Origin: an uncultured Hyphomicrobiales bacterium
Lineage (GTDB): Bacteria; Pseudomonadota; Alphaproteobacteria; Rhizobiales; Beijerinckiaceae
Assembly: GCA_903861645.1 (NCBI GenBank)
Contig: CAIOVE010000052.1
Coordinates: 1-64,000 of the forward strand
Length of the DNA: 64,000 nt
Direction: 5' to 3'
In this document: piece by piece, positions 40,513-61,582 of the stretch
Position numbering within the stretch: position 1 is the first letter of the stretch
How the letters are laid out: every line of letters starts with the position of its first letter
Program-made: the position numbers and the translations under genes
The notes under the pieces: generated by a model
Told to the model about the DNA's origin: nothing
Seen by the model: only the letters and a program-made list of their open reading frames with translations
The model's database searches: none

Positions 40513-40575
40513 GATCAGGTCGCCTCCCCAAAAACGCTGGTTTGACGCGACACACCGTCGTGGCGCGCGATCCAT

Positions 40576-41538: not shown

Positions 41539-41586
41539 TGTTTCCACCCTTGTCGATCTTGTCTCGAAAGTCCGGTCGCCGGCGCG

Positions 41587-42441: not shown

Positions 42442-42659
42442 GCGTGGCACGCTCCCGGAAATCTAAATCCACCGCCGCGATCAAGCATATCGGCTGTTAT
42501 TGCCATACATGCGGCGACCGGTCATTTCAATCGACATGCCCGACGCGGGCGACCGCGCGCGGCGGGGTGCAAGTGGCGGCGGTCGCTGATAATGTTTCGC
42601 CACAATCAATGATCGCGGCGCGCGCGGTGGCGCGTCGCCTCTTTTCGAAGCGAGGAAAC

Positions 42660-43367: not shown

Positions 43368-43395
43368 GCGCGTCGCGCGGGAGTTGACCGCGCGA

Positions 43396-44007
43396 TCAGC
43401 CAGCCGGCAGCGCTTGCGTCATTTCCTCCAGCCATGCCTTGTCGACGCCGTCGAGCGACGCGAGTTCGTCCGCCGCCTCCGACTTCGTCTGCGCGACGAG
43501 GGGAATAACATTGGGATCCTCGCCGTCCGCCATCTGGCAGGCGAATTCAAGCCGGATGCCGTTCGGATCGAAAAAGTAGATACCGTCCAGACCGGGCATC
43601 TGCGGAATGGGTCCAACGTAGGGCACGTCGTATTTTTTCAGGCGCTGTTCGAGCGCGCGGAATTTCTCGACCGTGACGACGAAGGCGCAATGCTGCATGG
43701 CGCCGATGGCGTTGCGGTTGCCGGCGGGTTCCTCGCCCCTGGGGATTTCGAAAAAGGCCAGCACGCTGTCGTTGCCCATGTCGAAAAAGTAATGACGCAC
43801 TTCCTCGTAGGGCGGATTGCCGCGGTTGTTGGGCCCCTTGCCGAGACCCGGCGGCACCTTCATCGCATGCACCAACGGCATGCCGATGACGCGCGTGTAG
43901 AACTCCGTTGTCGTTTTCATGTCGTCGGTGCACAGCGCCAGATGATGCACGCCGCGCGTGGGCGGTTGAATACTGGTTTCGGCGCGCTTTTCGGTCGTGG
44001 TCGACAT
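43396..44007 (-). CDS. VOC-superfamily (glyoxalase/extradiol dioxygenase-like) protein
   Basis: A 203-residue vicinal-oxygen-chelate protein with two beta-alpha-beta-beta-beta modules: TRGVHHLALCTDDMKTTTEFYTRVIGM and MQHCAFVVTVEKFRALEQRL. Likely metal ligands are the histidines in GVHHLAL and MQHCAF and the glutamate in GIRLEFACQ. It could be a ring-cleavage dioxygenase, lactoylglutathione-lyase-like or epimerase; sequence alone does not decide. Divergent from the Liv-type operon across an 89-base gap holding an 18-base dyad, and convergent with the exported CMD-like gene. Confidence 0.85.
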   Translation of the reverse strand: MSTTTEKRAETSIQPPTRGVHHLALCTDDMKTTTEFYTRVIGMPLVHAMKVPPGLGKGPNNRGNPPYEEVRHYFFDMGNDSVLAFFEIPRGEEPAGNRNAIGAMQHCAFVVTVEKFRALEQRLKKYDVPYVGPIPQMPGLDGIYFFDPNGIRLEFACQMADGEDPNVIPLVAQTKSEAADELASLDGVDKAWLEEMTQALPAG

Positions 44008-44023
44008 GAGCTCCTCCCGCGGA

Positions 44024-44041
44024 CAAGCCGTGTCCGGCTTG
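44024..44041. promoter_or_regulatory. 18-base inverted repeat between divergent VOC and Liv genes
   Basis: caagccg-tgtc-cggcttg, a perfect 7-bp dyad with a 4-base centre, 16 bases from the VOC start and 55 from the transporter start. It could be an operator for both units or a hairpin in the VOC leader. Confidence 0.45.
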
Positions 44042-44096
44042 ATCTTGAAAATTCAGCATGCATTATGCCTGAACCAAATATCAAGGGGGAAACGCC

Positions 44097-45245
44097 ATGT
44101 CGCGCTCACGATCGACTCGCCTTTCGCTAGCGGCCTTCGCCATCGCCTTGACGATGCCCGCCTTCGCCCAGGACACGATCAAGATCGGCGTCATCACCGA
44201 TCACGTCGGCGGCTCCAAGTTCTACGCCGAGCCCGTGACCCGCGGCATCGAATATGGCGCGCGCAAGATCAACGAGTCCGGCGGCGTGCTAGGTCGCAAG
44301 CTTGAGCTGATCATCGAGGACGATCAGAACAAGCCCGATGTCTCCGCCGCCAAGGCGCGCAAGCTCGTCGACGACGGCGTGGTCATTTTCCTCTCCACGA
44401 CGGGTTCGCCGTCGACCCAGCAGGCGCAGACCGTTTCACTCGAAACGAAAACGCCGCAACTCGCCCCCGCCAATGGCGCGGATCAGATGACCACCGCGCT
44501 CGACAATCCCTATTTCTTTCAGACGGGTCCGCTGGCGTCGGTGCAACTCGCGACCCTGATGGCCTACACCAGGAAAAAGGGCTTCAAGGAAGTCGCCATC
44601 GTGCGGGACAACACGGCGCTTTCGCAAGGCTTCGCGGATTCCTTCCGCGGCGGTCTCGAAAAGGCGGGGATCAAGGTCGCGCTTGAGGAAGTCATTCCGC
44701 AAGGCTCGACGTCGGCGGTCGCCAACCTGCAAAAGGTCCGCGGCGCCAAGGTCGACGCCATCTTTCAGGCGGGCATCAGCGGGCCGGAGATGCTGCAGTT
44801 CTTCCGAGCCTATGCGCAGCTCGGCATGAAGGAGCCGATCTACGGTTCCTACAACCTGAGCATTCCCGCCTATCTGACGATGGCCAAGGATCTGATGGAA
44901 GGCGTCATCTTCGCCGACGCCTTCGATCCAGATCGCCCCGACGTGAAGACCTTCCTGACGGATTTCGCGAAGGAGAACTCCGGCGGACCGGCGGGCAGTC
45001 TGGAAGCCTATGGCTGGGACGGCATCCATCTCGTCGCCGAGGCGCTACGCCGCGCCGGCGCGCCGGACCGCGAGAAGCTGCGCGCCGCCCTTCAGGGCAT
45101 CGACAAGTTCGACACGATCGTCGGCGCCAAGGGCACTTTCTGGAGCTTCGCTGGCGGCAAGCGCGCGGGCTTCCATCCGCAGGGCGCCGTCATTCGCGTC
45201 GTCGAGAACAACCAGCATGGCCGCGTGCTGCAAGCGGGGCAGTAA
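44097..45245 (+). CDS. Branched-chain-amino-acid-type ABC transporter substrate-binding protein
   Basis: A 382-residue periplasmic receptor of the LivJ/Peripla_BP_6 type: signal peptide (AFAIALTMPAFAQ), then DTIKIGVITDHVGGSKFYAEPVTRGIEYGARKINESGGVLGRKLELIIEDDQNKP. In catabolic clusters this family often binds aromatic acids rather than amino acids. It heads a five-gene HAAT-type importer operon (receptor, LivH, LivM, LivG, LivF) with very short or overlapping junctions. AAGGGGGAAAC precedes the start. The ligand is unknown; the setting suggests a substrate or intermediate of the surrounding enzymes. Confidence 0.94.
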   Translation: MSRSRSTRLSLAAFAIALTMPAFAQDTIKIGVITDHVGGSKFYAEPVTRGIEYGARKINESGGVLGRKLELIIEDDQNKPDVSAAKARKLVDDGVVIFLSTTGSPSTQQAQTVSLETKTPQLAPANGADQMTTALDNPYFFQTGPLASVQLATLMAYTRKKGFKEVAIVRDNTALSQGFADSFRGGLEKAGIKVALEEVIPQGSTSAVANLQKVRGAKVDAIFQAGISGPEMLQFFRAYAQLGMKEPIYGSYNLSIPAYLTMAKDLMEGVIFADAFDPDRPDVKTFLTDFAKENSGGPAGSLEAYGWDGIHLVAEALRRAGAPDREKLRAALQGIDKFDTIVGAKGTFWSFAGGKRAGFHPQGAVIRVVENNQHGRVLQAGQ

Positions 45246-45268
45246 GCCGCGCCGCCGCGAGACCGCGC

Positions 45269-46168
45269 ATGGAAGATTTCCTTGAGCTGCTGGTGAGCGC
45301 GACGGCGTCAGGCTGTGTGTATGGCCTGCTCGCGCTGGCCTATCTGGTCATCATCCGGCCGACGTCGATCATCAACTTCGCGGTCGGCGAATGGGCGGCG
45401 TCCGGCGCCTTCGTGGGCGTCGCGGTGCTGTCGACACTGGTGTGGCCGGCGCTCGAATGGCCGTGGTGGTCGGCCTTGCTCATCGTCGCCGCCTTTGGCG
45501 CGCTTGTCGGCTACGGGACGGAACTTCTCTGCGTGCGGCCGCTCGTGGCGCGCGGCGCGCCCGAACTCAGCGCCATTCTGGTGTTGCTGGGCGTTCTCGT
45601 GATTTTTCGCGAAGGCAATACACTGCTGTTCGGGGCGTCGCCGCTGCCCTCGCCCGCGCCCTTCGGCTTTCGGCGCATGTTGATCGGGCCGTTTCCCGGC
45701 GTCTCCCAGCAATTTCTCATCATCGGCGCGACGTTCGGCGTGTTCCTGAGCGCGTGGCTGTTCTTTGAACGCACGGTGTGGGGACGCGCCTTCGAGGCGG
45801 TCGCGCTGAACCGCAAGGCCGCGGCCTTGATGGGCATTGATCTGCGCATGGTCGGCGCGCTCGCCTTCGCCGCGGGCGGCGCGATCGCCGCGGTGGCGGG
45901 CCTGCTCGTCAGTCCGCTCACGTCGGCGCATTTCCTGATGGGGCTGCCGCTCGCCACGCAGGGCTTCACCGCGCTGGTCATCGGCGGCATTGGCCGCGTC
46001 GAGGGCGCGCTGCTTGGCGGCCTTATCCTCGCGTTCGTCGAGCAGTTCGGCGCGCGCTGGCTGCCCGTTCCCTCGGGCATGACGCTGGCGTTTCCCTTCG
46101 TGCTGCTGATCGGCTTCCTGCTGTTCAGGCCGACGGGCCTGCTGCGCGCGCCGGAAACGCGCGTATGA
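45269..46168 (+). CDS. Branched-chain-type ABC transporter permease (LivH-like)
   Basis: A 299-residue inner-membrane protein with about eight helices. Family landmarks: SATASGCVYGLLALAYLVIIRPTSIINFAVGEWA at the N-terminus, VALNRKAAALMGIDLRMV (the EAA-like coupling loop) and LATQGFTALVIGGIGRVEGALLGG near the C-terminus. With LivM it forms the translocation path. It starts 23 bases after the receptor gene and overlaps the LivM gene by 4 bases (ATGA). Confidence 0.94.
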   Translation: MEDFLELLVSATASGCVYGLLALAYLVIIRPTSIINFAVGEWAASGAFVGVAVLSTLVWPALEWPWWSALLIVAAFGALVGYGTELLCVRPLVARGAPELSAILVLLGVLVIFREGNTLLFGASPLPSPAPFGFRRMLIGPFPGVSQQFLIIGATFGVFLSAWLFFERTVWGRAFEAVALNRKAAALMGIDLRMVGALAFAAGGAIAAVAGLLVSPLTSAHFLMGLPLATQGFTALVIGGIGRVEGALLGGLILAFVEQFGARWLPVPSGMTLAFPFVLLIGFLLFRPTGLLRAPETRV

Positions 46169-47106
46169 ACGGTCGCGGCGTCCACGCGCTTGGCTGGCTC
46201 GCCGGCATGGGCGTCGCCATTGGTCTCGCCTTCGTGCTTGGCTCCTATCACACCGACGTCTATCGCAAGATGCTGATCTGGGTGGCGATGGCGCTCGGCT
46301 TCAATTTTCTGTTTGGCGTCGCCGGTCAGATCGCCTTTTCGCATTTCGCCTTCGCCTCCGTCGGCGCCTATGGCGTCGTCATCCTGTCGCATCAACTGGG
46401 CTTGCCCTTCGGGCTCGCGTTCGTGCTGGCGATCGTCATTTGCGGCCTGACGGCGTTCATCGTCGCGATCCCCGCGACGCGGCTCGAGGGATTCTATCTC
46501 GCGCTGGCGACACTCGCGTTCTCGCAACTCGTGCGCGTGACGATCGACGAGGGCGGCGCGTTGACCGGCGGCACCGGCGGCCTCGCCAACTATCGCCTGC
46601 CGCCCTTTTTCGGCGTCGACGTGCGCGGCCCCTGGTACACCGTCTGCCTCGTGCTGCTCGTCGCCTTCACGCTCTGGATATTGACGCGCGTCGACGCGTC
46701 GTGGTTCGGGCGCGCCTGTCGCGCGGTGCGCGACAATCCGCGCGCCGCCGAGGCCATGGGCGTCGACATTGCACGCGCGCGCATTCTGGTCTTCGTCATG
46801 ACCAGCACGCTCGCGGGTCTCGCCGGCATCGGTTACGCCTATGTCGACAACGTCATCAACCCCGCCGTGTTCAGCCTCGAAAATTCATTCCTGTTGCTGT
46901 TCATGATCATCATCGGCGGCAGCGGCCGCCACGTCGGCGCCATGCTGGGCGCGGTCGTTCTGTACCTCGCGCCATTCGCCCTCGAGCCGGTGGCGGGCAA
47001 TCATTACATGCTGGTGTTCGGCGTGCTGATCGTGCTCGCCATCCTGTTTCGACCCGATGGTCTGGCGGGCTTGTTGCGGATCACGCGACCGGGAAAAGCC
47101 GCGTGA
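46165..47106 (+). CDS. Branched-chain-type ABC transporter permease (LivM-like)
   Basis: A 313-residue inner-membrane protein: LIWVAMALGFNFLFGVAGQIAFSHFAFASVGAYG, the coupling loop RAVRDNPRAAEAMGVDIARARIL, and GGSGRHVGAMLGAVVLYL are standard LivM features. Its start overlaps the LivH stop and its stop overlaps the LivG GTG start (GTGA), so expression is translationally coupled. It is shorter than E. coli LivM (425 residues), as usual in alphaproteobacterial HAAT systems. Confidence 0.94.
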   Translation: MNGRGVHALGWLAGMGVAIGLAFVLGSYHTDVYRKMLIWVAMALGFNFLFGVAGQIAFSHFAFASVGAYGVVILSHQLGLPFGLAFVLAIVICGLTAFIVAIPATRLEGFYLALATLAFSQLVRVTIDEGGALTGGTGGLANYRLPPFFGVDVRGPWYTVCLVLLVAFTLWILTRVDASWFGRACRAVRDNPRAAEAMGVDIARARILVFVMTSTLAGLAGIGYAYVDNVINPAVFSLENSFLLLFMIIIGGSGRHVGAMLGAVVLYLAPFALEPVAGNHYMLVFGVLIVLAILFRPDGLAGLLRITRPGKAA

Positions 47107-47885
47107 GCGCGCCGCTCTTGCAAGTGCGCGGCCTGACGCGCCGGTTTGGCGGCCTCGTCGCGGTCTCCGATCTCGATGTCGACCTCGGCCGAGGCGAAAT
47201 ACTCGCGCTGATAGGGCCCAATGGCGCGGGCAAAACCACCACGTTCAACCTCATCGCGGGCGTCGATCGTCCGACATCGGGTACGATTGTGTTCGACGGG
47301 CGGGACATCTCCCGCCAGCCCGCCCATGCGCGCGCCGCCCTTGGCCTGACGCGCACGTTTCAGCACAACATGCCCTTCGCCGGCATGTCGCTGACCGACA
47401 ATATTCTCGTGGGGCGTCACGCTCGCTTCACCGGCGGACTCGTCGACGTGATTCTCGGGGCGCGCCGCCTACGCGAGCAGGAAAGCGCGGCGCGGCGCAA
47501 GGCGGACGAATTGATCGAATTCACCGGGCTTGGCGCGCGCGTGGACGCCGATGTTTCGACCCTCAGCTTCGGCGAGGGTCGTCTGCTGGAGGTCGCCCGC
47601 GCGCTTGTGAGCGATCCCCGCGCGATCCTGCTCGACGAACCGGCCGCGGGACTAACCGGCGCGGAGGTCGCGCGTCTCGCCCGGATCATCGCCGACATCG
47701 CCGCGCGCGGCATCGCGGTGCTGCTGATCGATCACGACATGCGTTTCGTGCTGCCTCTCGCCCATCGCGCGATCGTGCTGAAGTTCGGCGAGAAGATCGC
47801 GGATGGCCCGCCGCGCGACATCGTCAACGATCCCGCCGTCATCGCCGCCTATCTCGGCAATTCCGCGGGAGCGGCCCATGCTTGA
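47103..47885 (+). CDS. Branched-chain-type ABC transporter ATP-binding protein (LivG-like)
   Basis: A 260-residue ATPase with Walker [10 protein letters not shown] and the LivG-specific FQHNMPFAGMSLTDNILVG. The signature is LSFGEGRLLEVARAL, a variant of LSxGxxR, and Walker B is AILLDEPAAGLT; the C-terminal LivG tail VNDPAVIAAYLG is present. The GTG start at 47103 overlaps the LivM stop. The 481-residue ORF-track frame from 46440 includes an out-of-frame reading of LivM. Confidence 0.93.
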   Translation: MSAPLLQVRGLTRRFGGLVAVSDLDVDLGRGEILALIGPNGAGKTTTFNLIAGVDRPTSGTIVFDGRDISRQPAHARAALGLTRTFQHNMPFAGMSLTDNILVGRHARFTGGLVDVILGARRLREQESAARRKADELIEFTGLGARVDADVSTLSFGEGRLLEVARALVSDPRAILLDEPAAGLTGAEVARLARIIADIAARGIAVLLIDHDMRFVLPLAHRAIVLKFGEKIADGPPRDIVNDPAVIAAYLGNSAGAAHA

Positions 47886-48585
47886 GGCGCGCGCGCTCGC
47901 GGGCGGCTACCGCAAGGCGGATGTCATCGCCGACATCGATCTGCGCCTCGACGCCGGCGAGAGCGTGGCGCTGCTGGGCCCCAACGGCGCCGGCAAGTCG
48001 ACGGTGCTCGCCGCGCTCACGGCGACCCTGCCGCGACGCAGCGGCGCGATCCTGTTCAACGGCCGCGACGTCAGCGCCGAGCCCGGTCACAAGCTCGTCG
48101 CCGCCGGCCTCGCGCTCGTGCCAGAGGGTCGGCAGATTTTCGCGCCCTTCACCGTGCGGGATAATTTGCGACTGGGCGCCATCGCCCTGCCCCGCGCGCA
48201 TCGAGTCGCCGACAGATTCGATTATGTCTTCACGCTGTTTCCACGCCTCGCCGAGCGCGCGTCGCAACGCGCCGGCACCATGTCGGGCGGCGAACAGCAG
48301 ATGCTCGCCATCGGTCGCGCCCTGATGAGCGCGCCGCGCCTGCTGTTGCTCGACGAACCCTTCCTTGGCCTCGCGCCGATGATCGTCGAGGAAATCCTCG
48401 CCACGCTGGCCCGGTTGCGGGCGGATGGACTGACAACGCTCATCGTCGAGCAGAAACTCGAGATCGCGCTGGCCTGCGCCACGCGCGCCTATGTGATGGT
48501 CAATGGCCGCGTCATAAGGCATGCGCCCTGCGCCGAACTGGCGGCGGGCGGCGATTTGCAGGACATCTATTTTTCCGCGAACTGA
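47878..48585 (+). CDS. Branched-chain-type ABC transporter ATP-binding protein (LivF-like)
   Basis: A 235-residue ATPase: Walker A GPNGAGKST, the LivF motif LALVPEGRQIFAPFTVRDNLRLG, signature MSGGEQQMLAIGRAL, Walker B LLLLDEPFLGLAP and H-loop IVEQKLEIAL. The start ATG lies within the last codons of the LivG gene. It closes the five-gene importer operon; the convergent frameshifted methyltransferase lies 13 bases downstream, with no clear terminator between. Confidence 0.94.
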   Translation: MLEARALAGGYRKADVIADIDLRLDAGESVALLGPNGAGKSTVLAALTATLPRRSGAILFNGRDVSAEPGHKLVAAGLALVPEGRQIFAPFTVRDNLRLGAIALPRAHRVADRFDYVFTLFPRLAERASQRAGTMSGGEQQMLAIGRALMSAPRLLLLDEPFLGLAPMIVEEILATLARLRADGLTTLIVEQKLEIALACATRAYVMVNGRVIRHAPCAELAAGGDLQDIYFSAN

Positions 48586-49589: not shown

Positions 49590-51359
49590 TCACGCCCTGA
49601 CGAGCGCGCCCGGGTTTTTCAGATACTGGTTTTTCAGCGCGTCGGCGATCCAGTAGGCGAGCGCGCCGACCGGACCCGTCGGATTCTTGCCCGCGTTCTG
49701 CGGAAAGACGCAGGCGCCGGTGACGAACACGTTCGGCACGTCCCAAACCTGACAATAGCGGTTCAAGGCGCTGGTGCGCGGGTCGGTTCCCATCACCGCG
49801 CCGCCGGTATTGTGCGTGCTCTGATAGGGCACGATGGAATAGGGCACGGGATTGGTGCGCGCCTCGACCTTGCGCGCGCCCATTTCCTTGCCGATGGCGG
49901 CGCAGACATCCGCCAGCGCCTTCATCTGCTTCTGCTCGTTGTCGAGGAAGTCGAAGGTCATGCGCATCAGCGGCCGTCCGTAGATGTCGCGATAGGTCGG
50001 ATCGAGATCGAGATAGTTGCTCCGGTAGGCCATGTTGGAGCCCTGATTGGAAACGCCGGCCGCGTGCGGGTAATTGGCGGCGGTGGCCTTCTTCCACTCA
50101 AGTCCCCAGCGGGGCGTTCCCGCCGGCACGGGGCGCGACTGGATGGGCCGACCACCGGACGTCGACGCGCCGATGCCGCCGCCGCCGATATAGCCAGCCT
50201 TGGCGAAATCGTAATTGCCGGCGTTGAAATCGTCGATGTTCACGCCCAGCGCGCCCGCGCCCATGAAGGAGTTGATGTAGGTCTTCTCGTCGAAGAACAG
50301 GGTCGCGCCGCTGGAGGCCTGATAGGCGTAGTTGCGGCCGACGACGCCCGTGTTGGTGACGGGATCATAGGGCTTGCCGATGCCCGACCAGAGCATCAAC
50401 GCGACATTGCCCAGCGCATAGGCGCTGAGGACGACGAGATCGGCGGGCTGGATGAACTCGCGCCCGCGCGCGTCGACATAAAGGACACCGGTCGCCTTCT
50501 TGCCGGTGGAGTCGAGCAGCACCTTCATGACGTTGGCGTTGGTGCGCAGCTCGAAATTCGGATTGCGCGCGGCGATCGGCATGACCGTGAAATGCGGGCT
50601 CGCCTTGGCGTTGGCCTCGCAACCGAACCGTTCGCAGAATCCGCAGTAATGACACTGACCGAACGCGACGCCATCGGGATTCGTGTAAGGCTGGGAGGAA
50701 TTGGCCGCCGGCGAGGGAAAGGGATGATAGCCGAGATTGCGCGCGGCCTTCTCGAACATCACGCCGGTTTGCGTCTGCTTCAACGGCGGATTCGGATATT
50801 CGGACTTGCGCGGCCCCTCGAACACGTTGCCGCCGTCGATTTTCTGGCCGTTGAGATTGCCCGCCTTGCCCGACACGCCGCAGGTCTTCTCGAACCTGTC
50901 GTAATAGGGCTCCAGCTCATCGTAACCGATGCCCCAGTCCTGAAGGTTCATCCCCTCGGGAATGATCTTCTCGCCATAGCGCTCGACGGTCTGCTTGCGG
51001 GCTTCCTGATCCCACGGCGTCCAGCGCCACGTGACGCCGTTCCAGTGCACGCCGGCGCCGCCGACGCCCTCGCCCGGCAGGAACGAGCCAAGCTGACGCA
51101 TGGGCAGCGCCGTCTGCGACGACTTGTTGCGGAAGGTCAGGGTCTCGCGCGACACGTCCTGCATCAGGTCGTGACGCACGGCGTAGCGCAGTTCATCGTC
51201 CTTGTGCGGCTCAAGGAAATCGGGGTTGGTGTCGCGCGGGCCGCCGCGCTCCAGCGCCAGGATTTTCAGCCCGGTGGACGCCAGTTCCTTGGCGATGATG
51301 CCGCCGGTCCAGCCGTAGCCAACCAGCAGGATATCGACGGGCTTGAGTTGGGTAGCCAT
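49590..51359 (-). CDS. GMC-family FAD-dependent dehydrogenase, large subunit (gluconate 2-dehydrogenase-like)
   Basis: A 589-residue GMC oxidoreductase. FAD-binding DILLVGYGWTGGIIAKELA at the N-terminus; FLPGEGVGGAGVHWNGVTWRW is the GMC flavin loop; the C-terminal catalytic region includes YQSTHNTGGAVMGTDP with His-Asn. A cysteine cluster CHYCGFCERFGCEANAK (near residue 235) resembles the iron-sulfur ligands of FAD-GDH-type enzymes. It oxidises a sugar, polyol or alcohol in the periplasm and passes electrons to a cytochrome c. No signal peptide of its own is seen, so export probably depends on the Tat-exported small subunit encoded 59 bases upstream. No dedicated cytochrome c subunit gene is adjacent. 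Confidence 0.9.
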   Translation of the reverse strand: MATQLKPVDILLVGYGWTGGIIAKELASTGLKILALERGGPRDTNPDFLEPHKDDELRYAVRHDLMQDVSRETLTFRNKSSQTALPMRQLGSFLPGEGVGGAGVHWNGVTWRWTPWDQEARKQTVERYGEKIIPEGMNLQDWGIGYDELEPYYDRFEKTCGVSGKAGNLNGQKIDGGNVFEGPRKSEYPNPPLKQTQTGVMFEKAARNLGYHPFPSPAANSSQPYTNPDGVAFGQCHYCGFCERFGCEANAKASPHFTVMPIAARNPNFELRTNANVMKVLLDSTGKKATGVLYVDARGREFIQPADLVVLSAYALGNVALMLWSGIGKPYDPVTNTGVVGRNYAYQASSGATLFFDEKTYINSFMGAGALGVNIDDFNAGNYDFAKAGYIGGGGIGASTSGGRPIQSRPVPAGTPRWGLEWKKATAANYPHAAGVSNQGSNMAYRSNYLDLDPTYRDIYGRPLMRMTFDFLDNEQKQMKALADVCAAIGKEMGARKVEARTNPVPYSIVPYQSTHNTGGAVMGTDPRTSALNRYCQVWDVPNVFVTGACVFPQNAGKNPTGPVGALAYWIADALKNQYLKNPGALVRA

Positions 51360-51418
51360 GGGTCATCCTCCCCCGGCGGCGTTCGCGCGGCGCGCCGGCT
51401 TATTGTTGTCGGAAATTA

Positions 51419-52183
51419 TCAGGCGAAGTCCTGAATCGACTGGGTTTCGCCCGTGTAGGGCTTGTTGCGGAATTCCTCGATCATGTTGACGTACATGGCG
51501 GGAACGCCGGGAAAGCCGATCATCTTCCAGGCGGCCTTGTCCTTGTTGCCGCCGTAGATCGGGTCGCCGAAATAGCCTTCCATGGTCAGCGCGAGAAACT
51601 GATTGAACCAGACCGGGCCGGGAACATGCGCCAGTTGCGCCTTGCCTTGCTCCACTTCCGTCAGGACGGCGGCGCGCGTCGTGGCGTCGAGATCGCGCAG
51701 GCCCTTCTTGCGCGTCGCCATCGCGTAGGCGTCGACGTCGGCGATGCCGATGCGGATGAGGTCCGCCGGGGCGAGCGGCAACTGGTAGCCCTGCTGGGGC
51801 GTGCCCTCGGCGAAGGGCCCCTGCATGTAGAGCCGCGCGCCGCGCCCGAAGGCGCCGCCGAGCTGGCGATCCATGTAGGTGGCGCAGCCGGCTTCCGAGC
51901 CGCCGGGGCCGGTGGGATCGGGCGGGACCAACGTGTCGAGCGCGGCCTTCACGAAGGAGACCTCGTCGGGATTGAAAAACACGAAGCCGTCGAGCGCGCT
52001 CCGGGCGGCGCCCGCCGACGCGGGCGTGGGCATGGCGTGATCATGGCCGGCGTGTTCGCCGGCGGCGGGCGGGGACCCCTGCGCCATGGCGGTCGACGTG
52101 GCCGATACGCCGGCGGCCGCGCCCGTCGCGCCGACAACCTTCAGGAATCCGCGCCTGTCAACGCGATGGTCTTCGCCGCTCAT
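51419..52183 (-). CDS. Gluconate 2-dehydrogenase subunit 3-like small subunit, Tat-exported
   Basis: A 254-residue small subunit with a twin-arginine signal DRRGFLKVVGATGAAAG, a histidine-rich linker GEHAGHDHAMP, and the gluconate_2-dh3 domain (FFNPDEVSFVKAALDTLVPPDPTGPGGSEAGC, then AHVPGPVWFNQFLALTMEGYFGDPIYGGNKDKAAWKMIGFPG). Such subunits piggy-back the GMC large subunit through the Tat pathway. ATG 52183 has GGGAGGAT upstream. It is the first gene of the dehydrogenase pair and divergent from the LysR gene, which may control it. Confidence 0.9.
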   Translation of the reverse strand: MSGEDHRVDRRGFLKVVGATGAAAGVSATSTAMAQGSPPAAGEHAGHDHAMPTPASAGAARSALDGFVFFNPDEVSFVKAALDTLVPPDPTGPGGSEAGCATYMDRQLGGAFGRGARLYMQGPFAEGTPQQGYQLPLAPADLIRIGIADVDAYAMATRKKGLRDLDATTRAAVLTEVEQGKAQLAHVPGPVWFNQFLALTMEGYFGDPIYGGNKDKAAWKMIGFPGVPAMYVNMIEEFRNKPYTGETQSIQDFA

Positions 52184-52316
52184 GGCATCCTCCCTCTTCG
52201 ATGGCGCGCGTTCGCCGCGTCGCCCAATCATTGGGCAAAGCCTACCGCGCCGGCGCGCGCTCGGCTATAGTTTTGTGACATGTCTGAATCGCGCCCCGGG
52301 CGCGGGGGAGGCTTCC

Positions 52317-53395: not shown

Positions 53396-53758
53396 ATGGC
53401 CGAGCAATTCATTGGAAAAGCGTCCGAATTCAAGGACGGCGACCGTCAGATCGTCCGCATCGGCGAGGACGAAATCGGCGTTTTCAAGCACGAAGGCGCC
53501 TTCTACGCCTATAGCAACTTCTGCCTGCATCAGGGCGGTCCGGCCTGCGAGGGCCTGACGATCGCCAATGTCGAGGAGCGCCTCCGCCCCGACAAGACCT
53601 CGATGGGTCTGCACTTCACCGACCAGATGAACTTCGTCTGCCCGTGGCATGGCTACGAGTACGACATGAAGACCGGCTGCCACGTGAAGGACAAGTCCGT
53701 GAAGCTGCGCAAGTACGACGTCGTGACGAAGGGAAACGACGTCTATGTCGTCGCCTAG
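53396..53758 (+). CDS. Rieske [2Fe-2S] ferredoxin
   Basis: A 120-residue soluble Rieske protein. The cluster ligands are the canonical CxH...CxxH: CLHQGG and CPWHGYEYD, separated by about 45 residues, longer than the usual 15-20 because of the insert CEGLTIANVEERLRPDKTSMGLHFT. Such ferredoxins deliver electrons to ring-hydroxylating oxygenases or other redox enzymes. Start 53396 (MAEQFIGKASEF) has GGAGGG 9 bases upstream; the ORF-track start at 53339 is rejected. The last 14 bases overlap the next gene. No oxygenase alpha subunit or ferredoxin reductase is in the window. Confidence 0.88.
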   Translation: MAEQFIGKASEFKDGDRQIVRIGEDEIGVFKHEGAFYAYSNFCLHQGGPACEGLTIANVEERLRPDKTSMGLHFTDQMNFVCPWHGYEYDMKTGCHVKDKSVKLRKYDVVTKGNDVYVVA

Positions 53759-54344: not shown

Positions 54345-55592
54345 ATGGACCTCATAGCTGACCGCGGTCGACGCGTACAAGTCGACGAACTCAACACCAG
54401 CAAGCTGCTCGCGCACGCCGCCAAGCAGACCCGCGACAAGGGCTTCGACGACGTGCTGATCGTCGACGTCGACGCGCATCACTACGAGAACGAGAGCTTC
54501 GGCGAAATCCTGCCGTTCATGGAGAACGAGGTTCTCAAGCAGTTGGCGATCGCCTCGCGCGCCAAGGGCGGCCGCGGCAATGTCGCGCCGTCGGGCTTCG
54601 GCTATCAGGACATGGGCGGTCGCGTCACGCGCTATCCGCTGCGCTCGTCTGAAAAGACCGACGCCAACGGCCCGCACCGCGACGTGCAGCTCGGCAACCG
54701 CTGGATGGACGCCATGGGCGTCGACTATTCCTGCCTGTTCCCCACGGGCATGCTGTCGATCGGCCTGCACCCGCAGAAGGAAATGGAAGTCGAGCTGTGC
54801 TGGGCCTACAACCGGTGGGTGACGGAAAAGGCCCTGCCGGAAAGCGGCGGACGCCTGTTCACCATGCTCTGCCTGCCCTTCAGCGACGCCGACGAATGCC
54901 TGCGTCAGGTCGAGACCTTCGGTCATCGTCCGGGCGTGCGCGGCTTCATGGTGACGACCGTGCGTCCGAAGATGGGCGTGCAGGACAACGCCTACATGAA
55001 GGTCTATCGCGCCATCGAGGAACGTGGCCTCGTGCTGTCGTTCCACTCCGGCCCGTCGTGGGGCGACCACACGTTCCAGAGCTGCAACCGCTTCCTGTCG
55101 GCGCATGCGCTGGGCTTCTCCTGGTACAACATCCTGCACTGCACGAACTGGGTCGTGAACGGCATGGGCGAGCGTTTCCCCAAGCTGCCCGTGCTGTGGA
55201 TCGAGGCCGGCCTGTCGTGGATTCCCTTCGTCATGCAGCGCATCGACCATGAATACATGCTGCGTCCGTCGGAATGTCCGCTTTTGAAGAAGAAGCCATC
55301 CGACTACATGCGCGACATGTTCTATTCGGTGCAGCCGATGGAAATCCAGGACATGGGCGCGCTGGAAACGACGTTCCGCATGATGGACGCCGAGAACTCG
55401 CTGCTCTACGCCTCGGACTATCCGCACTGGGACTTCGACCTGCCCTCGACGATCTGGGATCTGCCCTTCCTCACCGACAAGGCGCGCCACAACATCCTCG
55501 GCGGCACGGCCCACCGGCTGTTCAAGCTGCCGCCGCGCAACGAGGCGCAGAAGCAGAACCTCATCAAGTACGGCAACTACCAGGAATTCTGA
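54345..55592 (+). CDS. Amidohydrolase-2 family metal-dependent hydrolase/decarboxylase
   Basis: A 415-residue TIM-barrel amidohydrolase. Probable metal-site residues: VDVDAHHYENESF near residue 42 (D-x-D-x-H-H in place of the usual DxHxH), the strand LVLSFHSGPSWGDH with histidines, and LYASDYPHWDFDLPST near the C-terminus with the late aspartate. Enzymes of this family cleave C-N, C-O or C-C bonds in aromatic or cyclic compounds. GGAGGG precedes the ATG. Third gene of the Rieske-unknown-amidohydrolase unit, closed by a terminator. An unusually long insert (residues about 75-130) distinguishes it from ACMSD-like members. Confidence 0.87.
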   Translation: MDLIADRGRRVQVDELNTSKLLAHAAKQTRDKGFDDVLIVDVDAHHYENESFGEILPFMENEVLKQLAIASRAKGGRGNVAPSGFGYQDMGGRVTRYPLRSSEKTDANGPHRDVQLGNRWMDAMGVDYSCLFPTGMLSIGLHPQKEMEVELCWAYNRWVTEKALPESGGRLFTMLCLPFSDADECLRQVETFGHRPGVRGFMVTTVRPKMGVQDNAYMKVYRAIEERGLVLSFHSGPSWGDHTFQSCNRFLSAHALGFSWYNILHCTNWVVNGMGERFPKLPVLWIEAGLSWIPFVMQRIDHEYMLRPSECPLLKKKPSDYMRDMFYSVQPMEIQDMGALETTFRMMDAENSLLYASDYPHWDFDLPSTIWDLPFLTDKARHNILGGTAHRLFKLPPRNEAQKQNLIKYGNYQEF

Positions 55593-55650: not shown

Positions 55651-56703
55651 ATGGACCTGTTCATGATCATGCGCGCGGGACGCCGCCTCGCTTTCGTCGC
55701 GATAACGCTTTGCGCGGCAACCAGCGCCCGCGCACAGGACGCCGCCGGCTTCTATCGCGGCAAGACCGTCACGATGATCATCGCGTCCGCGGCGGGCGGC
55801 GGCTTCGATGCGTATGGCCGGCTCGTCGCGCGCCACATCGGCGCGCATATTCCCGGCAATCCCAATGTCATTCCGCAGAACATGCCGGGCGCGGCGGGCG
55901 CCAACGCCGCCTATTACGTGGTGAACGTCGCGCCGAAGGAGGGAACGGTCATCGGCGCCATTCACCCCGGCAACATCATCGAGCCCGTGCTGGGCGACAA
56001 GCGCAAGGTGCGCTTTGATCCCAGCGCGTTCCAGTATATCGGCAACGCCAACACGGATGTCTACATCTGCGTGACGCGCGCCGACGCGCCCGCCAAATCG
56101 TTCGCCGAGGCGTTGAACACCGAACTCGTGATGGGCTCGGGCGGCGAGGCCGCGTCGACCAAGGACTTTCCGGTCATGTTGACGAACGTGCTCGGCGCGA
56201 AATTCAAGATGGTGCTCGGCTATTCGGGCAATCGCGAGGTGCAGCTCGCGATCGAGAAGGGCGAAATTCACGGCGAATGCGGCGCCGGCTGGTCGAGCGT
56301 GCTGTCGGCGCATCCCGACTGGTTCGCCAACAAATTCGCGCGCGTGCTTGTGCAGGAGGCCTCCGTCGGACATCCCGATCTCGACCGGATGGGCGTGCCG
56401 AAGACGGTCGATTTCGCGAAGACGCCCGAACAACGCGCCGTGCTGGATCTCGTCTACGCGCAGGAGCAATTCGGGCGCCCCTATATCATGGCGCCGGAAA
56501 CGCCGGCCGAGCGCGTGTCGACCATGCGCAAGGCTTTCATGGATACGTTCCACGATCCCGCGTTCCTCGCCGAGGCCGCGCGGATGAACCTCGATGTGTC
56601 GCCGACCTCCGGCGAGGAAACGCAGGCGCTGGTGCGCAAGGTTTTCGCGACGCCGCCCGACATCGTCGAGCGCGCGAAACAGGCGACGACGGCGCGCGAA
56701 TAA
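55651..56703 (+). CDS. Periplasmic TTT/Bug-family solute receptor (GGGxDxY subtype)
   Basis: A 350-residue receptor of the same subtype as those at 33.8 and 38.5 kb: signal peptide (RLAFVAITLCAATSARAQ), GKTVTMIIASAAGGGFDAYGRLVARH, IPGNPNVIPQNMPGAAGAN, and the end KVFATPPDIVERAKQ. The start is uncertain: ATG 55651, 55663 and 55669 are all in frame and none has a Shine-Dalgarno; the signal peptide fits best from 55669. A terminator ends 6 bases before 55651, so expression depends on read-through or on a promoter overlapping the hairpin. Convergent with the VOC dioxygenase gene, 6 bases away. Confidence 0.87.
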   Translation: MDLFMIMRAGRRLAFVAITLCAATSARAQDAAGFYRGKTVTMIIASAAGGGFDAYGRLVARHIGAHIPGNPNVIPQNMPGAAGANAAYYVVNVAPKEGTVIGAIHPGNIIEPVLGDKRKVRFDPSAFQYIGNANTDVYICVTRADAPAKSFAEALNTELVMGSGGEAASTKDFPVMLTNVLGAKFKMVLGYSGNREVQLAIEKGEIHGECGAGWSSVLSAHPDWFANKFARVLVQEASVGHPDLDRMGVPKTVDFAKTPEQRAVLDLVYAQEQFGRPYIMAPETPAERVSTMRKAFMDTFHDPAFLAEAARMNLDVSPTSGEETQALVRKVFATPPDIVERAKQATTARE

Positions 56704-56709
56704 CCGGCG

Positions 56710-57705
56710 TCAGCGCGCCAGGAATTTTTCCAGCGTCAGCGGCATCGGCGGCTTGGCGGGAGCCTTCGGCGGCGTCGCCTCGAAATGCGTGGCTTCCTCG
56801 AACCATTTGCGCTGCGCGGGCAATCCCCACGGCAGGGAGATGTTGGGATCGCCGGGATCCCAGCGCACCGGTTCGTTCTCGAGATCCATGATCTGGTAAT
56901 GCGTGTTGAACAATTCGACGCGATGACCATCGGGATCGCGGAAATAGACAAACAGCGCGTGACCGGGGCCGTGGCGGCCGGGACCACGCTCGACGTCGCG
57001 GCCAAATCCCATTTCGCCGGCGATGTCGCAGGCGCGCAGCAGATTGTGCGTTTCCGCGGCCGCGTAGGCGAAGTGATGCAGGCGCGGCCCCTCGCCATTG
57101 AAGAACACGATGTCGTGCGGGTTGCCCTTGCGTTGCAGGAACACGCCGAAGATATCGTCGCCGCCCGCGGGCGCGATATATTCGCTCGCGCGAAATCCCA
57201 TTTCCATCCAGAACTCGGTCGCGCGTCGCACGTTCGGCGACAGAATCTGGCAGTGATCGATGCGTTGCGCGCAGCCGCCCTTGTGGCTTGAAAACCTCGT
57301 GATCATGCGCGGCATCGCGTCCATGCGGGCCGTCAGTTCGATCGGCGCGCCGACGGGATCGATCAGGTGCAGCGTGCGGCCCTGATAAGGCGCGTCGACG
57401 AAACGTGGATCGCAACCCGCCGCCGCGAAGGCGTCGTGCGCGCGATCGAGATCGTCCTCGGTCATCACGCGCATGCCGACGCGTTGGCACAGGGCGTCGC
57501 CCGACGAGCGCCTCAGCACGAGACTATGATGACAGGCTTCCTCGACTCCACGCAGATAAAGAGCGTCCTTGTCCTGATCGGAAACAACCAGACCTAGCAC
57601 CTCCGTGTAGAAATGCCGGCTGGCGTCGAGATCCCGGACGGTCATCACGAAATGGCTGGTGCGCGTAATGCGGCAGGGCGGATCGAACCGCGGCTTTGGC
57701 AGCAT
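56710..57705 (-). CDS. Extradiol dioxygenase-like VOC protein (homoprotocatechuate 2,3-dioxygenase type)
   Basis: A 331-residue two-module VOC protein the size of type I extradiol ring-cleavage dioxygenases. N-terminal module: ITRTSHFVMTVRDLDASRHFYTEVLGL. Catalytic C-terminal module with the likely 2-His-1-carboxylate iron ligands: QRIDHCQILSPNVRRATEFW, GPRLHHFAYAAAETH and DGHRVELFNTHYQ. This pattern resembles HpaD/BphC-type enzymes that open catechols next to the hydroxyls. ATG 57705 is preceded by CGAGGAAC; the longer ORF-track start is rejected. The exact catechol is unknown. Confidence 0.87.
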   Translation of the reverse strand: MLPKPRFDPPCRITRTSHFVMTVRDLDASRHFYTEVLGLVVSDQDKDALYLRGVEEACHHSLVLRRSSGDALCQRVGMRVMTEDDLDRAHDAFAAAGCDPRFVDAPYQGRTLHLIDPVGAPIELTARMDAMPRMITRFSSHKGGCAQRIDHCQILSPNVRRATEFWMEMGFRASEYIAPAGGDDIFGVFLQRKGNPHDIVFFNGEGPRLHHFAYAAAETHNLLRACDIAGEMGFGRDVERGPGRHGPGHALFVYFRDPDGHRVELFNTHYQIMDLENEPVRWDPGDPNISLPWGLPAQRKWFEEATHFEATPPKAPAKPPMPLTLEKFLAR

Positions 57706-57900
57706 GGACGTTCCTCGAACAGGCAACGCACCGCTTGGCGCGGGCTCGGCGGGAGTATGGCCCGCGGCGATCGGAAATGTCCATCCGCCAAGCGGAAACG
57801 GGCCGCGCAAGGTTGTCAGAATCGCCCGTGACAATTAGTGTTCCGGTTAAATCCGACGCGGTTGCAAAACGCGCGGAACGCCATGCGGGAGGAGCTGCAA

Positions 57901-59562
57901 ATGCCGAGACATTCGATTTCTGGATTGGGCGCGGGCGTGGCCCTCGCCGCCTTGTTGCTTGCGTCGCCGACATTGGCGCAAGGACTATCCGGCAAGGTTG
58001 CTTCCGAAGCCGAGCCCAAAATGGAAGGCGTGCTCGTCACCGCCAAGCGCGAGGGATCGACCATCGCCACGACGGTCGTGACCGACGCGACGGGCGCCTA
58101 CGCCTTCCCGGCCGATCGCATAGGCCCCGGCAAATATACACTGTCGATCCGCGCCATCGGCTATGTGCTCGACGGACCGAAAAGTGTCGAGGTGCCGAAC
58201 GGGCAGCCGGCGACCGCCGACATCAAGCTGTCGAAGACAAAGAACCTCGCCGCGCAACTGTCGAACGCCGAATGGCTGATGTCGATGCCCGGCACGGACA
58301 AGGAAAAACAGTTCCTCGACGCCTGCTCGGGCTGCCACACCTATCAGCGCATCGTGAACTCGACCTACGAGCCCGAGGATTTCCGCGACAACATCTTCAA
58401 GCGCATGGGTTCCTATTCGCCGGGCTCCATGCCGACGAAGCCGCAGCCGCTCCTGCCCGGCCCGCGCGGCGAGCGCCCGGCCGTCAACGAGAAGGCGGCC
58501 CCCGCCGCCGCGGAACTGCTGGCGAAGGCCAACCTCAGTCAGGGCCCCAACCGGAGCTACGAACTCAAGACCCTGCCGCGGCCGGCCGGTCGCGCGACGA
58601 AGGTGATCATCACCGAATACGACCTGCCCGCGAAGGACTGGGAGCCCCACGACGTGATCATGGATCACGAGGGCATGGTCTGGTTCTCCGATTTCGGCGA
58701 CCAGCGCATGGGCCGCATGGACCCCAAAACCGGCAAGGTCGAAACCCTCGAACTGCCCATGATGAAAACCGATGGCTCGCCCAAGGGCGGACTTGAAATC
58801 GGCGAGGCGCCGAACGGCGACATCTGGCAGTCGGGCATGTATCAGGGCGGCGTCTATCGTTGGGAGCGCGCCACCGGCAAGGTCACCGCCTATCGCATTC
58901 CCGACAAATGGCAGACGGCCTCGACGCAGGAGTCGATGGTCTCGCCGCAGCATTCGGATGTCGACGGCTATGTCTGGACGAACGATCAGCAAGACCACTC
59001 GCTGCTGCGCCTGAACGTCAAGACCGGCGAATACGAGCAGATGGGCGAAACGAAGGACGCGAACGGCAAGCCGATTCCCGGCTATGGCATGCCGACGGAC
59101 CTCAAGAACCGACCCATGCTGCATGAATTCTCGGGCACGAGGATTGGCTGGTACGATCCCGAGAAGCGCGTCGCCGAGGTCTTCACGACGCCGTTCCAGG
59201 GCTCGGCGCCGCGGCGCGGACGCGTCGACGCGGAGGGCCGCCTGTGGTTCGCCGAATATCGTGGCGGCGGCATCGGCATGTTCGACACGAAGACCAAGGA
59301 ACTCAAGGAATACAAGCTGAAGGCGCCATGGGCGACGCCCTATGACGTCGTCGCGACGAAGACCGGCGAGGTCTGGGCCGGTTCGATGGCCAACGACATG
59401 GTCAACCGGCTCGATACGAAGAGCGGCGAGGAGGTCGATTACCTCATGCCGCGGCCGACCAACATCCGGCGCGTCTTCGTCGACGAGCGCGGCTCCCGCC
59501 CGGTGTTGTGGGTCGGCTCCAATCACGGCGCCTCGGTCATCAAGGTCGAGCCGCTGGATTGA
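57901..59562 (+). CDS. Exported carboxypeptidase-regulatory/heme c/beta-propeller fusion (Vgb-like)
   Basis: A 553-residue exported protein. Signal peptide to about residue 27 (ALLLASPTLAQ). Residues 28-110 form a CarboxypepD_reg-like beta-sandwich (LVTAKREGSTIATTVVTDATGAYAFP). The c-type heme motif C142-SGC-H146 lies in a short cytochrome-like helical segment with possible Met ligands near 170-177. Residues about 230-553 form a Vgb/streptogramin-lyase-like propeller with repeats such as DHEGMVWFSDFGDQRMGRMDP and DAEGRLWFAEYRGGGIGMFDT. A redox or ring-opening role in the periplasm is possible. GGGAGGAG precedes ATG 57901. It lies between two VOC dioxygenase genes. Confidence 0.85.
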   Translation: MPRHSISGLGAGVALAALLLASPTLAQGLSGKVASEAEPKMEGVLVTAKREGSTIATTVVTDATGAYAFPADRIGPGKYTLSIRAIGYVLDGPKSVEVPNGQPATADIKLSKTKNLAAQLSNAEWLMSMPGTDKEKQFLDACSGCHTYQRIVNSTYEPEDFRDNIFKRMGSYSPGSMPTKPQPLLPGPRGERPAVNEKAAPAAAELLAKANLSQGPNRSYELKTLPRPAGRATKVIITEYDLPAKDWEPHDVIMDHEGMVWFSDFGDQRMGRMDPKTGKVETLELPMMKTDGSPKGGLEIGEAPNGDIWQSGMYQGGVYRWERATGKVTAYRIPDKWQTASTQESMVSPQHSDVDGYVWTNDQQDHSLLRLNVKTGEYEQMGETKDANGKPIPGYGMPTDLKNRPMLHEFSGTRIGWYDPEKRVAEVFTTPFQGSAPRRGRVDAEGRLWFAEYRGGGIGMFDTKTKELKEYKLKAPWATPYDVVATKTGEVWAGSMANDMVNRLDTKSGEEVDYLMPRPTNIRRVFVDERGSRPVLWVGSNHGASVIKVEPLD

Positions 59563-59629
59563 TCCTTGCTAGCTAATCGTCGCGCGCGAGAGGCGCGCGG
59601 CGCCCGCCTTTCATGTTCCGGAGCACACA

Positions 59630-60544
59630 ATGATACAGGCCCAACGCCTTTCGCACGCCACGCTCGAAACGCCCGACATGCAACGCGCCATCGATTACTA
59701 TGTCGGCGTGAACGGTCTCGTCGAAGTCAGCCGCGACGCCGGCCACGCGTGGCTCGCCTCGAAAATCGGCCAGCTCGCCATCGAACTGGTGAAGGGCGAG
59801 GAGCCGGCCTGCACGCGGCTTTCGTTCGAGGTGGCGCCGACCACCAATCTCGCCGAGGCGCGCGACAAGCTCGCCGCCCTGGGCGTGAAGGCCGAATTGC
59901 GCGCCGACCCCTTCCCCGGCACGCCGCAATGCCTGAGCTTCTCCGATCCCGCCGGCACGATGATCGACATTTTCGCCAAGTGGGATTTCGTCGCGCCCAA
60001 CCAGAACGTCGCGGGCATCGGTCCGTTGAAGGTCGGCCATGTCGCCTTGTTCGTGCCCGACCTGCATCAGACAATCGATTTCTATTCGAAGGTTCTGGGT
60101 TTCCGCGTGTCGGACTGGATCGGCGATCTCTTCGTGTTCATGCGCTGCAACCCCGATCATCACACCGTGAATTTCTTTCAGGGCGGCCCGCGGCGCCTGC
60201 ATCACCTCGCGCTGGAACTGAAGGACTTCGTGCACATCAACAACGCCTGCGAAACGCTGGCGATGCATCGGATTCCACTGGGCTGGGGGCCGCTACGCCA
60301 TGGCCCCGGCCACAACATCGCCGCCTATCATCGCAACCACGACGATCACGTGATCGAGTATTATTGCGAACTCGACCAGATGAAGAACGAGGATCTCGGC
60401 TATTTCGAGCCGCGCCCGTGGCACGTCGATCGTCCGCAGCGGCCAAAGGTCTGGCCGGCGCGCACGTGGGTGTCGGGCTGGGGCACGCCGCCGGCGCCGG
60501 ACTTCGGCCGCAACGAACGCGCGCTCGGCTCGCGCAACCTCTAG
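59630..60544 (+). CDS. Extradiol dioxygenase-like VOC protein
   Basis: A 304-residue two-module VOC protein: [29 protein letters not shown] and [30 protein letters not shown]. The probable iron ligands in the second module are the histidines in KVGHVALF and [10 protein letters not shown] and the glutamate in [12 protein letters not shown]. It is expected to cleave a catechol-type ring with Fe(II) or Mn(II). It differs substantially from the 331-residue paralog at 56.7 kb, so the two probably act on different ring substrates. CCGGAGCAC precedes the ATG. Confidence 0.87.
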
Positions 60545-60641: not shown

Positions 60642-61520
60642 ATGAACCTCGCCGCGATGCTCAAGGCGTTCGACGCGCCGACCGACCTGCCCGAGGAGGC
60701 CCTGCGCTGGGGCCTCGACCACTGGGACATCGCGCGGCCCGCGCTTGTTCAAGTGCTGGCCCGTTGCGCCCGCAACCCAGAGGGCGCGCGCGACGGCGAC
60801 ATGCTCGCGGCCTATTTCGGCCTGTTTTTGCTGGCCGAAAAACGCGACCCCGCGGCCGCGCCGATGTTGCGCGCGCTGATCAAGGCGCCGGAAGGCGCCG
60901 CGACCCTGTTCGCCGACGACGGCTCGATGTCGCTGGCGCGCGTGATGATCTCGGTTTTCGACGGCGACGCGCGCGCGCAGCGGGCGCTCGCCGAGGATCG
61001 CGCCATCGATCCCTTCATGCGCGAGATGGCCTATGAAACGGTCGCCTGGCTGACGGCGGCGGGGAAGATCGATCACGACGAAACGCTGGCGTGGCTGACC
61101 GCGGCGACCGCGCGCTTCGAGTCGATAGATCCCGTCGACGCCGACTGGATTTCATGGGGCTTCGCGGTGGCCCGGCTCGGCCTCGGCGACCTGATGGGCG
61201 AGGCGCGCGAAGCCTTCGGCGTCATGGGCGAGCAGGCCGTCGAGGCCATCGAGGAACTCGACATGATCTTCGCGATGGCGCGCGAGGAGACCGATCCGCT
61301 CGCCGTCTTCGCGCGTGACGGCATCGGCCCGGTGGATGACGCCATCGCCGACCTTCGACGCATCGATGAAATCGCCGCCACCCTCGAGGAAATGGAAAAT
61401 CCCGACGATGGCGAGGAGGCTCTCGCGCCCGTCGTCAATGAATTCCGCGATGTCGGACGTAATGATCCCTGCCCCTGCGGCAGCGGCAAGAAATTCAAGA
61501 AGTGCTGTCTGGCGGCGTGA
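60642..61520 (+). CDS. HEAT-like/DUF1186-type protein with C-terminal SEC-C zinc motif
   Basis: A 292-residue alpha-helical protein. The N-terminal about 220 residues ([50 protein letters not shown]-like helices) fit the DUF1186 family. The C-terminus is a complete SEC-C motif, [19 protein letters not shown], with the Zn ligands CxCx8CC, as in the tail of SecA. SEC-C tails bind zinc and often contact ribosomes or SecB-like partners. No function is established for the combination. It marks the end of the catabolic neighbourhood and is followed by a bidirectional terminator. Confidence 0.85.
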
Positions 61521-61552: not shown

Positions 61553-61582
61553 AAAACGCCGGGGAGCGATCCCCGGCGTTTT
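61553..61582. terminator. Bidirectional Rho-independent terminator
   Basis: A perfect 13-bp stem aaacgccgggga / tccccggcgtttt around a gcga tetraloop, with T-rich flanks on the plus side (ttttgtttt) and A-rich flanks (caaacaaaaa) that give T-runs on the minus strand. It serves both the SEC-C gene and acnA. Confidence 0.93.

Follow-up and report, generated by a model that had tools for sequence, protein, structure and literature searches.

The window, by which we mean the whole 64,000-nucleotide stretch of DNA analyzed here, encodes an exported protein in which a CarboxypepD_reg sandwich, a putative heme-c site, and a seven-bladed propeller of the streptogramin lyase (Vgb) type are fused in a single chain. 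This fusion is best explained as belonging to an uncharacterized family of monoheme propeller proteins of the periplasm, which has expanded into many paralogues. Regarding its function, we see about an even chance that it is a Sec-exported c-type redox enzyme or electron relay for an anionic small molecule, with dioxygenase neighbours that are specific to its lineage. The features of the locus are given in Table 1. The fusion gene starts with ATG, preceded by GGGAGGAG, and its residue numbers follow those of P0001 (true residue plus one). The window also holds a pair of GMC and gluconate-2-DH subunit 3 genes, i.e., a GMC/gluconate-2-DH-type enzyme at 49590-52231.

Table 1. Features of the fusion locus, with positions in the window.
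Feature	Position	Strand	Basis or remark
Amidohydrolase	54345-55592	+	PF04909
TctC/Bug-type solute-binding protein	55651-56703	+	Weak PF03401 match
VOC1, type I extradiol dioxygenase, HpaD-like, 331 aa	56710-57705	-	PF00903 E 1e-26; TIGR02295
Divergent intergenic region VOC1/fusion, 195 bp	57706-57900	.	One weak sigma-70-like match, - strand
Fusion protein, 553 aa	57901-59562	+	Signal peptide, CarboxypepD_reg, monoheme c module, Vgb-type seven-bladed propeller
Fusion, signal peptide MPRHSISGLGAGVALAALLLASPTLA	57901-57978	+	Sequence; residues 4-25 low pLDDT
Fusion, CarboxypepD_reg beta-sandwich, residues 30-112	57985-58233	+	PF13620 E 5.8e-13 (Pfam)
Fusion, CSGCH heme-c attachment motif, residues 143-147	58324-58338	+	C143, C146, H147 invariant in 49 members
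Fusion, Met170, probable distal heme ligand, +23 from His147	58405-58407	+	Invariance; spacing in paralogues
Fusion, seven-bladed Vgb-type propeller, residues 236-554	58603-59559	+	PF24684; Foldseek 2qc5 and 2z2o
VOC2, second, distantly related type I extradiol dioxygenase, 304 aa	59630-60544	+	PF00903 E 2.6e-18
DUF1186/SEC-C protein	60642-61520	+	Pfam; last gene before terminator at 61553-61582

The initial annotation had described an exported protein made of a sandwich, a CSGCH site, and a streptogramin-lyase-like propeller, and this architecture was confirmed by the signal peptide, Pfam, AlphaFold2, and Foldseek. The AlphaFold2 model, computed without heme, reached a pLDDT of 91.8. The propeller matched the Pfam family Vgb_lyase (PF24684) with an E-value of 1.6e-23 and 83 bits, against a cut-off of 50, and Foldseek superposed it on the streptogramin lyases 2qc5 and 2z2o (E ~1e-18 to 1e-17, TM 0.87-0.89 by target length). 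CarboxypepD_reg was matched in all 49 family members, about a dozen copies of the family occur in one genome, and the domains stay together in a single protein wherever the family is, patchily, shared by Alphaproteobacteria and Acidobacteria. Because only a few candidates were scored in each genome of the surveys by phylum and by order, the near-absence seen there is to be read as a lower bound. Searches of plasmids returned only distant propeller matches, and those of phages returned none. No model in Pfam or NCBIfam spans the whole architecture, and a literature search for it or for close analogues found no description.

Judged from its residues, the heme-c site of the fusion looks real, since the only two cysteines of the protein both fall within CSGCH (chance expectation about 1e-4) and all the CXXCH members that we examined, down to those of 25-30% identity, have a methionine at position +22 or +23 after the heme histidine. 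An exact CXXCH was found in 47 of the 49 family members and CX3CH in the other two, and M170 is the sole invariant ligand-capable residue of the heme module outside this motif. Profile comparison of the module with solved structures gave, as its best but weak matches, the alpha subunit of quinohemoprotein amine dehydrogenase (QHNDH; E 0.004 and 0.012) and cytochrome c553 (E 0.03). The Pfam models Cytochrome_CBB3 and Cytochrom_C each matched one family member weakly, P0001 had no Pfam cytochrome match, and Foldseek returned nothing significant for the isolated module. The genome encodes CcmF, which is involved in cytochrome c maturation. Together, the signal peptide, the family-wide CXXCH and methionine, and the maturation gene support the periplasmic and redox character first proposed for the fusion, in which heme c would be ligated by H147 and M170.

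QHNDH is likewise periplasmic and combines a seven-bladed propeller with beta-sandwiches and heme c. Its structures (1jju, 1jmx) and the heme module of the fusion share, besides the weak profile match, a similar His-to-Met spacing once an insert is set aside. However, the alpha subunit of QHNDH is diheme and works with a separate CTQ-bearing subunit, whereas the fusion is one chain with a single CXXCH, and neither a CTQ subunit nor its maturation genes were seen among the adjacent genes identified at its locus.

Vgb (virginiamycin/streptogramin B lyase, PF24684) shares the seven-bladed propeller of the fusion and is its best Pfam, PDB, and Foldseek match, but lacks the signal peptide, the sandwich domain, and the heme c. 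This likeness is what favours a lyase or hydrolase that uses a mechanism like that of streptogramin B lyase, the heme being decorative or structural. The catalytic set of Vgb, which we take to be H228/E268/H270/E284 (residue roles partly presumed), aligns with R440/T480/Y482/M497-A498 of the fusion and matches at no position. The H270A variant is called catalytically inactive in the Vgb structure entry 2z2p. In a shifted blade register, E268-P-H270 of Vgb could equal E249-P250-H251 of the fusion, but E249 is not conserved (Glu in 16/49), the equivalent of E284 is F266, and the catalytic set is still not restored. Likewise, the NCBIfam models for VgbA and VgbB scored the fusion at 64.1 and 58.9 bits against a cut-off of 600, and the heme motif is retained family-wide. 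We therefore regard a mechanism of this kind as very improbable. The lyase step that the initial annotation offered as one option is not supported, given this lack of conservation; streptogramin-lyase activity itself we rejected on the catalytic residues together with the sub-cut-off NCBIfam scores. The propeller does carry a ring of conserved residues at inner-strand positions (H251, Y396, R440, Y482, and R524), located at positions homologous to the catalytic ones of Vgb. A comparable case is CylK, in which a Vgb-like propeller is fused to an RTX domain; this enzyme has resorcinols as substrates, and its active site lies where the two domains meet (PMC8916777). Like the fusion, CylK joins a Vgb-type propeller to a second domain and has lost the Vgb active-site residues (PMC8916777); unlike the fusion, it has no heme, makes C-C bonds, and carries an unrelated fused domain.

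The fusion probably oxidizes an anionic small molecule or relays electrons from it. The two arginines, two tyrosines, and one histidine of the propeller mouth may bind an anionic, probably carboxylated, compound; the protein would act as a redox enzyme, or as the electron-relay partner of a periplasmic dehydrogenase, with electrons passing via its heme to a soluble cytochrome c. Substrates would differ among the many paralogues. If the propeller were only a docking scaffold, the fusion would be restricted to electron transfer or sensing, its heme shuttling electrons from a separate periplasmic dehydrogenase to the respiratory chain. A lone heme with a His/Met-like motif is what one expects of an electron-transfer cytochrome, no non-heme cofactor is evident in the fusion, and the GMC/gluconate-2-DH-type enzyme of the window is one candidate partner. 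Moreover, at a few distant paralogues a possible redox partner is encoded close by, which counts for the main redox reading as well: immediately upstream of two of them (C85 and C95) lies the gene of a separate small cytochrome c (for one of the two, checked against Pfam, PF13442), and one (L087) has a PQQ-dehydrogenase-like gene nearby. Nevertheless, the invariant or near-invariant His, Tyr, and Arg residues of the propeller mouth exceed what a scaffold needs, and comparison of the loci revealed no dehydrogenase that is a constant partner. A purely electron-transferring or sensing role, although compatible with the data, is unlikely in our view. In its most novel form, the redox reading would make the fusion a new type of oxidoreductase of the periplasm: one heme c would be placed above the Vgb-type propeller, and the carboxylated aromatic or humic compounds held in the propeller mouth would be its electron donors. 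The paralogues, diversified to about a dozen in each genome, would have been exchanged between Alphaproteobacteria and Acidobacteria. We put this forward tentatively, as a possibility that is somewhat on the unlikely side.

As first annotated, two different extradiol-type dioxygenases flank the fusion. Both are intact, with two VOC modules and a 2-His-1-Glu iron site each (Pfam Glyoxalase/dioxygenase; alignment), and they differ widely in their scores against HpaD (homoprotocatechuate 2,3-dioxygenase, TIGR02295, 1f1x), with 319.1 bits for VOC1, just below the equivalog cut-off of 321.4, and only 132 bits for the much more distant VOC2. By alignment, VOC1 shares with HpaD the type I extradiol iron site (H150/H210/E263) and the acid/base residues H196, H244, and Y253, but it carries I288/S289 in place of the substrate-carboxylate anchor R292/R293. 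The best solved relative of VOC2 is 3b59 (E 2e-27), and its H137/H192/E243 align with the iron ligands of C23O. Since VOC1 (ATG at 57705) is divergent from the fusion, only VOC2, which starts 67 bp downstream, can share the fusion transcript. On the other side of VOC1, both the TctC/Bug gene (85%, again beside VOC1) and the amidohydrolase gene (PF04909; 97%) are retained at locus L049.

The initial annotation also suggested that a reaction in the periplasm feeds ring opening in the cytosol; on this view, the fusion would process an aromatic compound specifically for VOC1 and VOC2. The complete VOC1-fusion-VOC2 trio occurs only here and in the nearest relative (G015), and in one further genome (G048) VOC1 alone still adjoins the fusion orthologue. 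Among genus-mates, orthologues of VOC1 and of the fusion occur together in 8 genomes, singly in 3 and 3, and in 37 neither is found (Fisher p = 3.5e-5, phylogeny not corrected). This co-occurrence is the best remaining support for a link to ring cleavage. However, the two lie on different contigs in five of the eight genomes (G050, G016, G046, G009, and G011), and the other fusion orthologues, at 68-80% identity, adjoin lepA/hrcA or different genes. Close fusion paralogues occupy other gene contexts, and the dioxygenase orthologues elsewhere are usually away from the fusion, several of them adjoining an FAA-hydrolase-like gene. It had been set beforehand that a fusion confined to unrelated neighbourhoods would count against the proposal, and our observations come close to that outcome without quite reaching it. 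Genes for Rieske oxygenases, UbiD, LigB, or amidohydrolases near some homologues would fit a role in aromatic catabolism. Nevertheless, around the 12 paralogues of this genome neither TctC genes (3/12 loci within 6 kb versus 32% expected, with 118 TctC genes counted in the genome, including the weak match of the window) nor VOC genes (2/12 loci versus 13% expected) are enriched, so this link is only suggestive. The absence from VOC1 of the carboxylate-binding Arg pair of HpaD also argues against specific feeding, and on the whole we find such feeding quite improbable. Rieske oxygenases recur near several fusion homologues; there are 42 in the genome and no significance was established. A conserved operon of the fusion with the dioxygenases was rejected on synteny and the tree. 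In our reading, the flanking extradiol dioxygenases represent a recent, lineage-specific neighbourhood outside any conserved machine, and it is largely by chance in this lineage that the fusion is linked to ring cleavage.

Recognizing the ring-cleavage neighbourhood as lineage-specific averts a false pathway assignment, as well as the automatic label of 'virginiamycin B lyase'. If redox-active, the fusion would represent an unrecognized step of periplasmic electron input in soil and lake bacteria.

The fusion gene lying between the dioxygenase genes VOC1 and VOC2 encodes an exported protein that joins a CarboxypepD_reg sandwich, a CSGCH-bearing helical module and a Vgb-type (virginiamycin B lyase) propeller, as initially annotated. 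Residues 2-27 (P0001 numbering, with one additional leading residue) look like a Sec signal peptide, the propeller matches PF24684, and the AlphaFold2 model, built with 49 family sequences, reached a mean pLDDT of 91.8 and a pTM of 0.89. Foldseek searches with this model placed Vgb structures at the top (2qc5, E 2.9e-18, TM 0.89 by target length).

Features of the fusion protein, the window and loci (L) from relatives and paralogues
Feature	Location	Strand	Details
Fusion start (ATG)	57901	+	preceded by GGGAGGAG; product 553 residues
CarboxypepD_reg sandwich	residues 30-112
CSGCH in helical module	residues 143-147
Propeller	residues 236-554		PF24684
VOC1	56710-57705	-	two-module vicinal-oxygen-chelate, type I extradiol dioxygenase group
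VOC2	59630-60544	+	two-module vicinal-oxygen-chelate, type I extradiol dioxygenase group
Strong terminator-like hairpin	61553-61582		3' of gene after VOC2
TctC/Bug-type genes	39541-41547, 55651-56703, others
TAT-exported gluconate-2-dehydrogenase subunit 3-like protein and GMC oxidoreductase	49590-52231	-
Rieske-type ferredoxin-like protein	53396-53758	+	upstream of amidohydrolase gene
FAA hydrolase	22403-23185
Branched-chain-type ABC transporter genes adjoining carboxymuconolactone-decarboxylase-like and single-module VOC genes	42609-48585		possibly a second aromatic uptake/catabolism block
CFQSCH subfamily	L015, L041, L053 12127-13608, L054 12055-13536, L086 8714-10294
Small cytochrome c	L081 555-905		Pfam-confirmed
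Small cytochrome c	L093 1882-2226		same cluster as L081 gene
Cytochrome c and ~620-aa paralogue pairs	L081 555-2761 (C85); L093 1882-4100 (C95)
Tandem fusion duplications in relatives	L089 (G011:C160) 1927-5390, L090, L092

The protein has two cysteines, both within CSGCH, and across the 49 aligned family members C143, C146, H147 and M170 are invariant, with no further invariant ligand-capable residue in the heme module. A Met at +22 or +23 from the heme His is found in every CXXCH member of the alignment and also in paralogues of 25-30% identity. A profile of the heme module alone matched weakly to quinohemoprotein amine dehydrogenase, in its diheme subunit (E 0.0041, 0.012), and to cytochrome c553 (E 0.03), its further matches being mostly cytochromes; Foldseek with the isolated module returned no significant match. 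The invariant cysteines, His and Met, the sole cysteines being those of the motif, the weak cytochrome matches and the presence of CcmF in the genome make heme binding very likely on sequence grounds. One subfamily carries CFQSCH (CX3CH) instead of CXXCH and retains the distal Met, a possible non-standard heme-c attachment site.

The proposed lyase step is unlikely. The Vgb catalytic residues H228, E268, H270 and E284 align with R440, T480, Y482 and M497-A498, and after a one-blade register shift H251 takes the place of H270 with the acidic partners still missing, so that neither register holds the catalytic set. It is replaced by H251, Y396, R440, Y482 and R524, whose family-wide conservation at inner-strand positions suggests a putative pocket for an anionic ligand. 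CylK, which joins a propeller of the Vgb type to a second domain, is an enzyme acting on aromatic rings; its active site lies where the two domains meet, and it no longer has the Vgb residues (PMC8916777), a precedent for catalysis by a fused propeller of this kind.

Two differing extradiol-type dioxygenases do flank the fusion, all three genes lying where first annotated. VOC1, divergently oriented and 195 bp from the fusion, is HpaD-like (319.1 bits on TIGR02295, slightly below the cut-off of 321.4) and aligns over its full length with homoprotocatechuate 2,3-dioxygenase (1f1x). That enzyme's iron-binding H155/H214/E267 are matched by H150/H210/E263 in VOC1, and H200, H248, Y257 and R243 are all retained, whereas the R292/R293 pair of HpaD is I/S; the residue roles are those generally known for HpaD. 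VOC2, starting 67 bp after the fusion, is far more distant from HpaD, with 3b59 as the closest solved structure and H137/H192/E243 as iron ligands by alignment.

Functional coupling to both dioxygenases was not borne out by conservation. Within the tree-defined orthologue clade (n=11, 68-84% identity), the amidohydrolase-TctC-VOC1-fusion-VOC2 block occurs only in the window and its nearest relative G015 (L049), and VOC1-fusion adjacency also in G048 (L074). Neither dioxygenase adjoins the fusion in G050, from the same inner clade; a VOC-like gene and TctC receptors are found there at a distance of a few kb. In sister and outer members (L050, L051, L052/L089, L055, L076) lepA or hrcA-type housekeeping genes are adjacent, and L054 has a VOC2-like gene (49% identity). 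The simplest reading is thus that the fusion gene came to lie among the VOC genes within the window's lineage. VOC1 and fusion orthologues lie on separate contigs in G050, G016, G046, G009 and G011, where relatives of the FAA hydrolase gene stand beside several VOC1 and VOC2 homologues. Among 51 genomes, 8 have both orthologues, 3 and 3 a single one and 37 neither (p = 3.5e-5 for co-occurrence, uncorrected for relatedness). TctC and VOC genes are not enriched around 12 paralogues in the window's genome; TctC/Bug-type solute-binding proteins number about 117 in this 4.2 Mb genome, an extreme expansion.

The fusion is most likely a periplasmic redox protein. The periplasmic redox step initially proposed to feed ring opening is partly supported: export stands on the signal peptide and redox function is probable from CXXCH and Met, while delivery to the dioxygenases is mostly unsupported, given the unconserved neighbourhood. 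A substrate or partner would dock at the propeller mouth, and electrons would then run via heme c to a soluble cytochrome c. Hints of this role come from small cytochrome c genes directly upstream of two distant paralogues in the same genome (L081, L093) and a PQQ-dehydrogenase-like gene near another (L087). None of the genes next to the gluconate-2-dehydrogenase/GMC pair was recognised as a cytochrome c subunit, so the fusion could be the electron acceptor of this enzyme. Recurring Rieske oxygenases, UbiD, LigB, amidohydrolases and luciferase-like monooxygenases near homologues are suggestive of a link to aromatic catabolism.

The window's genome encodes five family members that share 42-100% identity with the window protein, besides at least six of greater divergence. 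Matches at E <= 1e-20 occurred in 22 of 101 surveyed genomes, all of the same genus; order and phylum surveys, with few candidates scored per genome, gave no additional strong match. The family is also represented in Acidobacteria, Xanthobacteraceae and MAGs of other Alphaproteobacteria, and the interleaving of Acidobacteria with Alphaproteobacteria at several well-supported places in the family tree suggests that it has been transferred between phyla. What is new here is the uncharacterised, expanded fusion architecture, not its neighbourhood.
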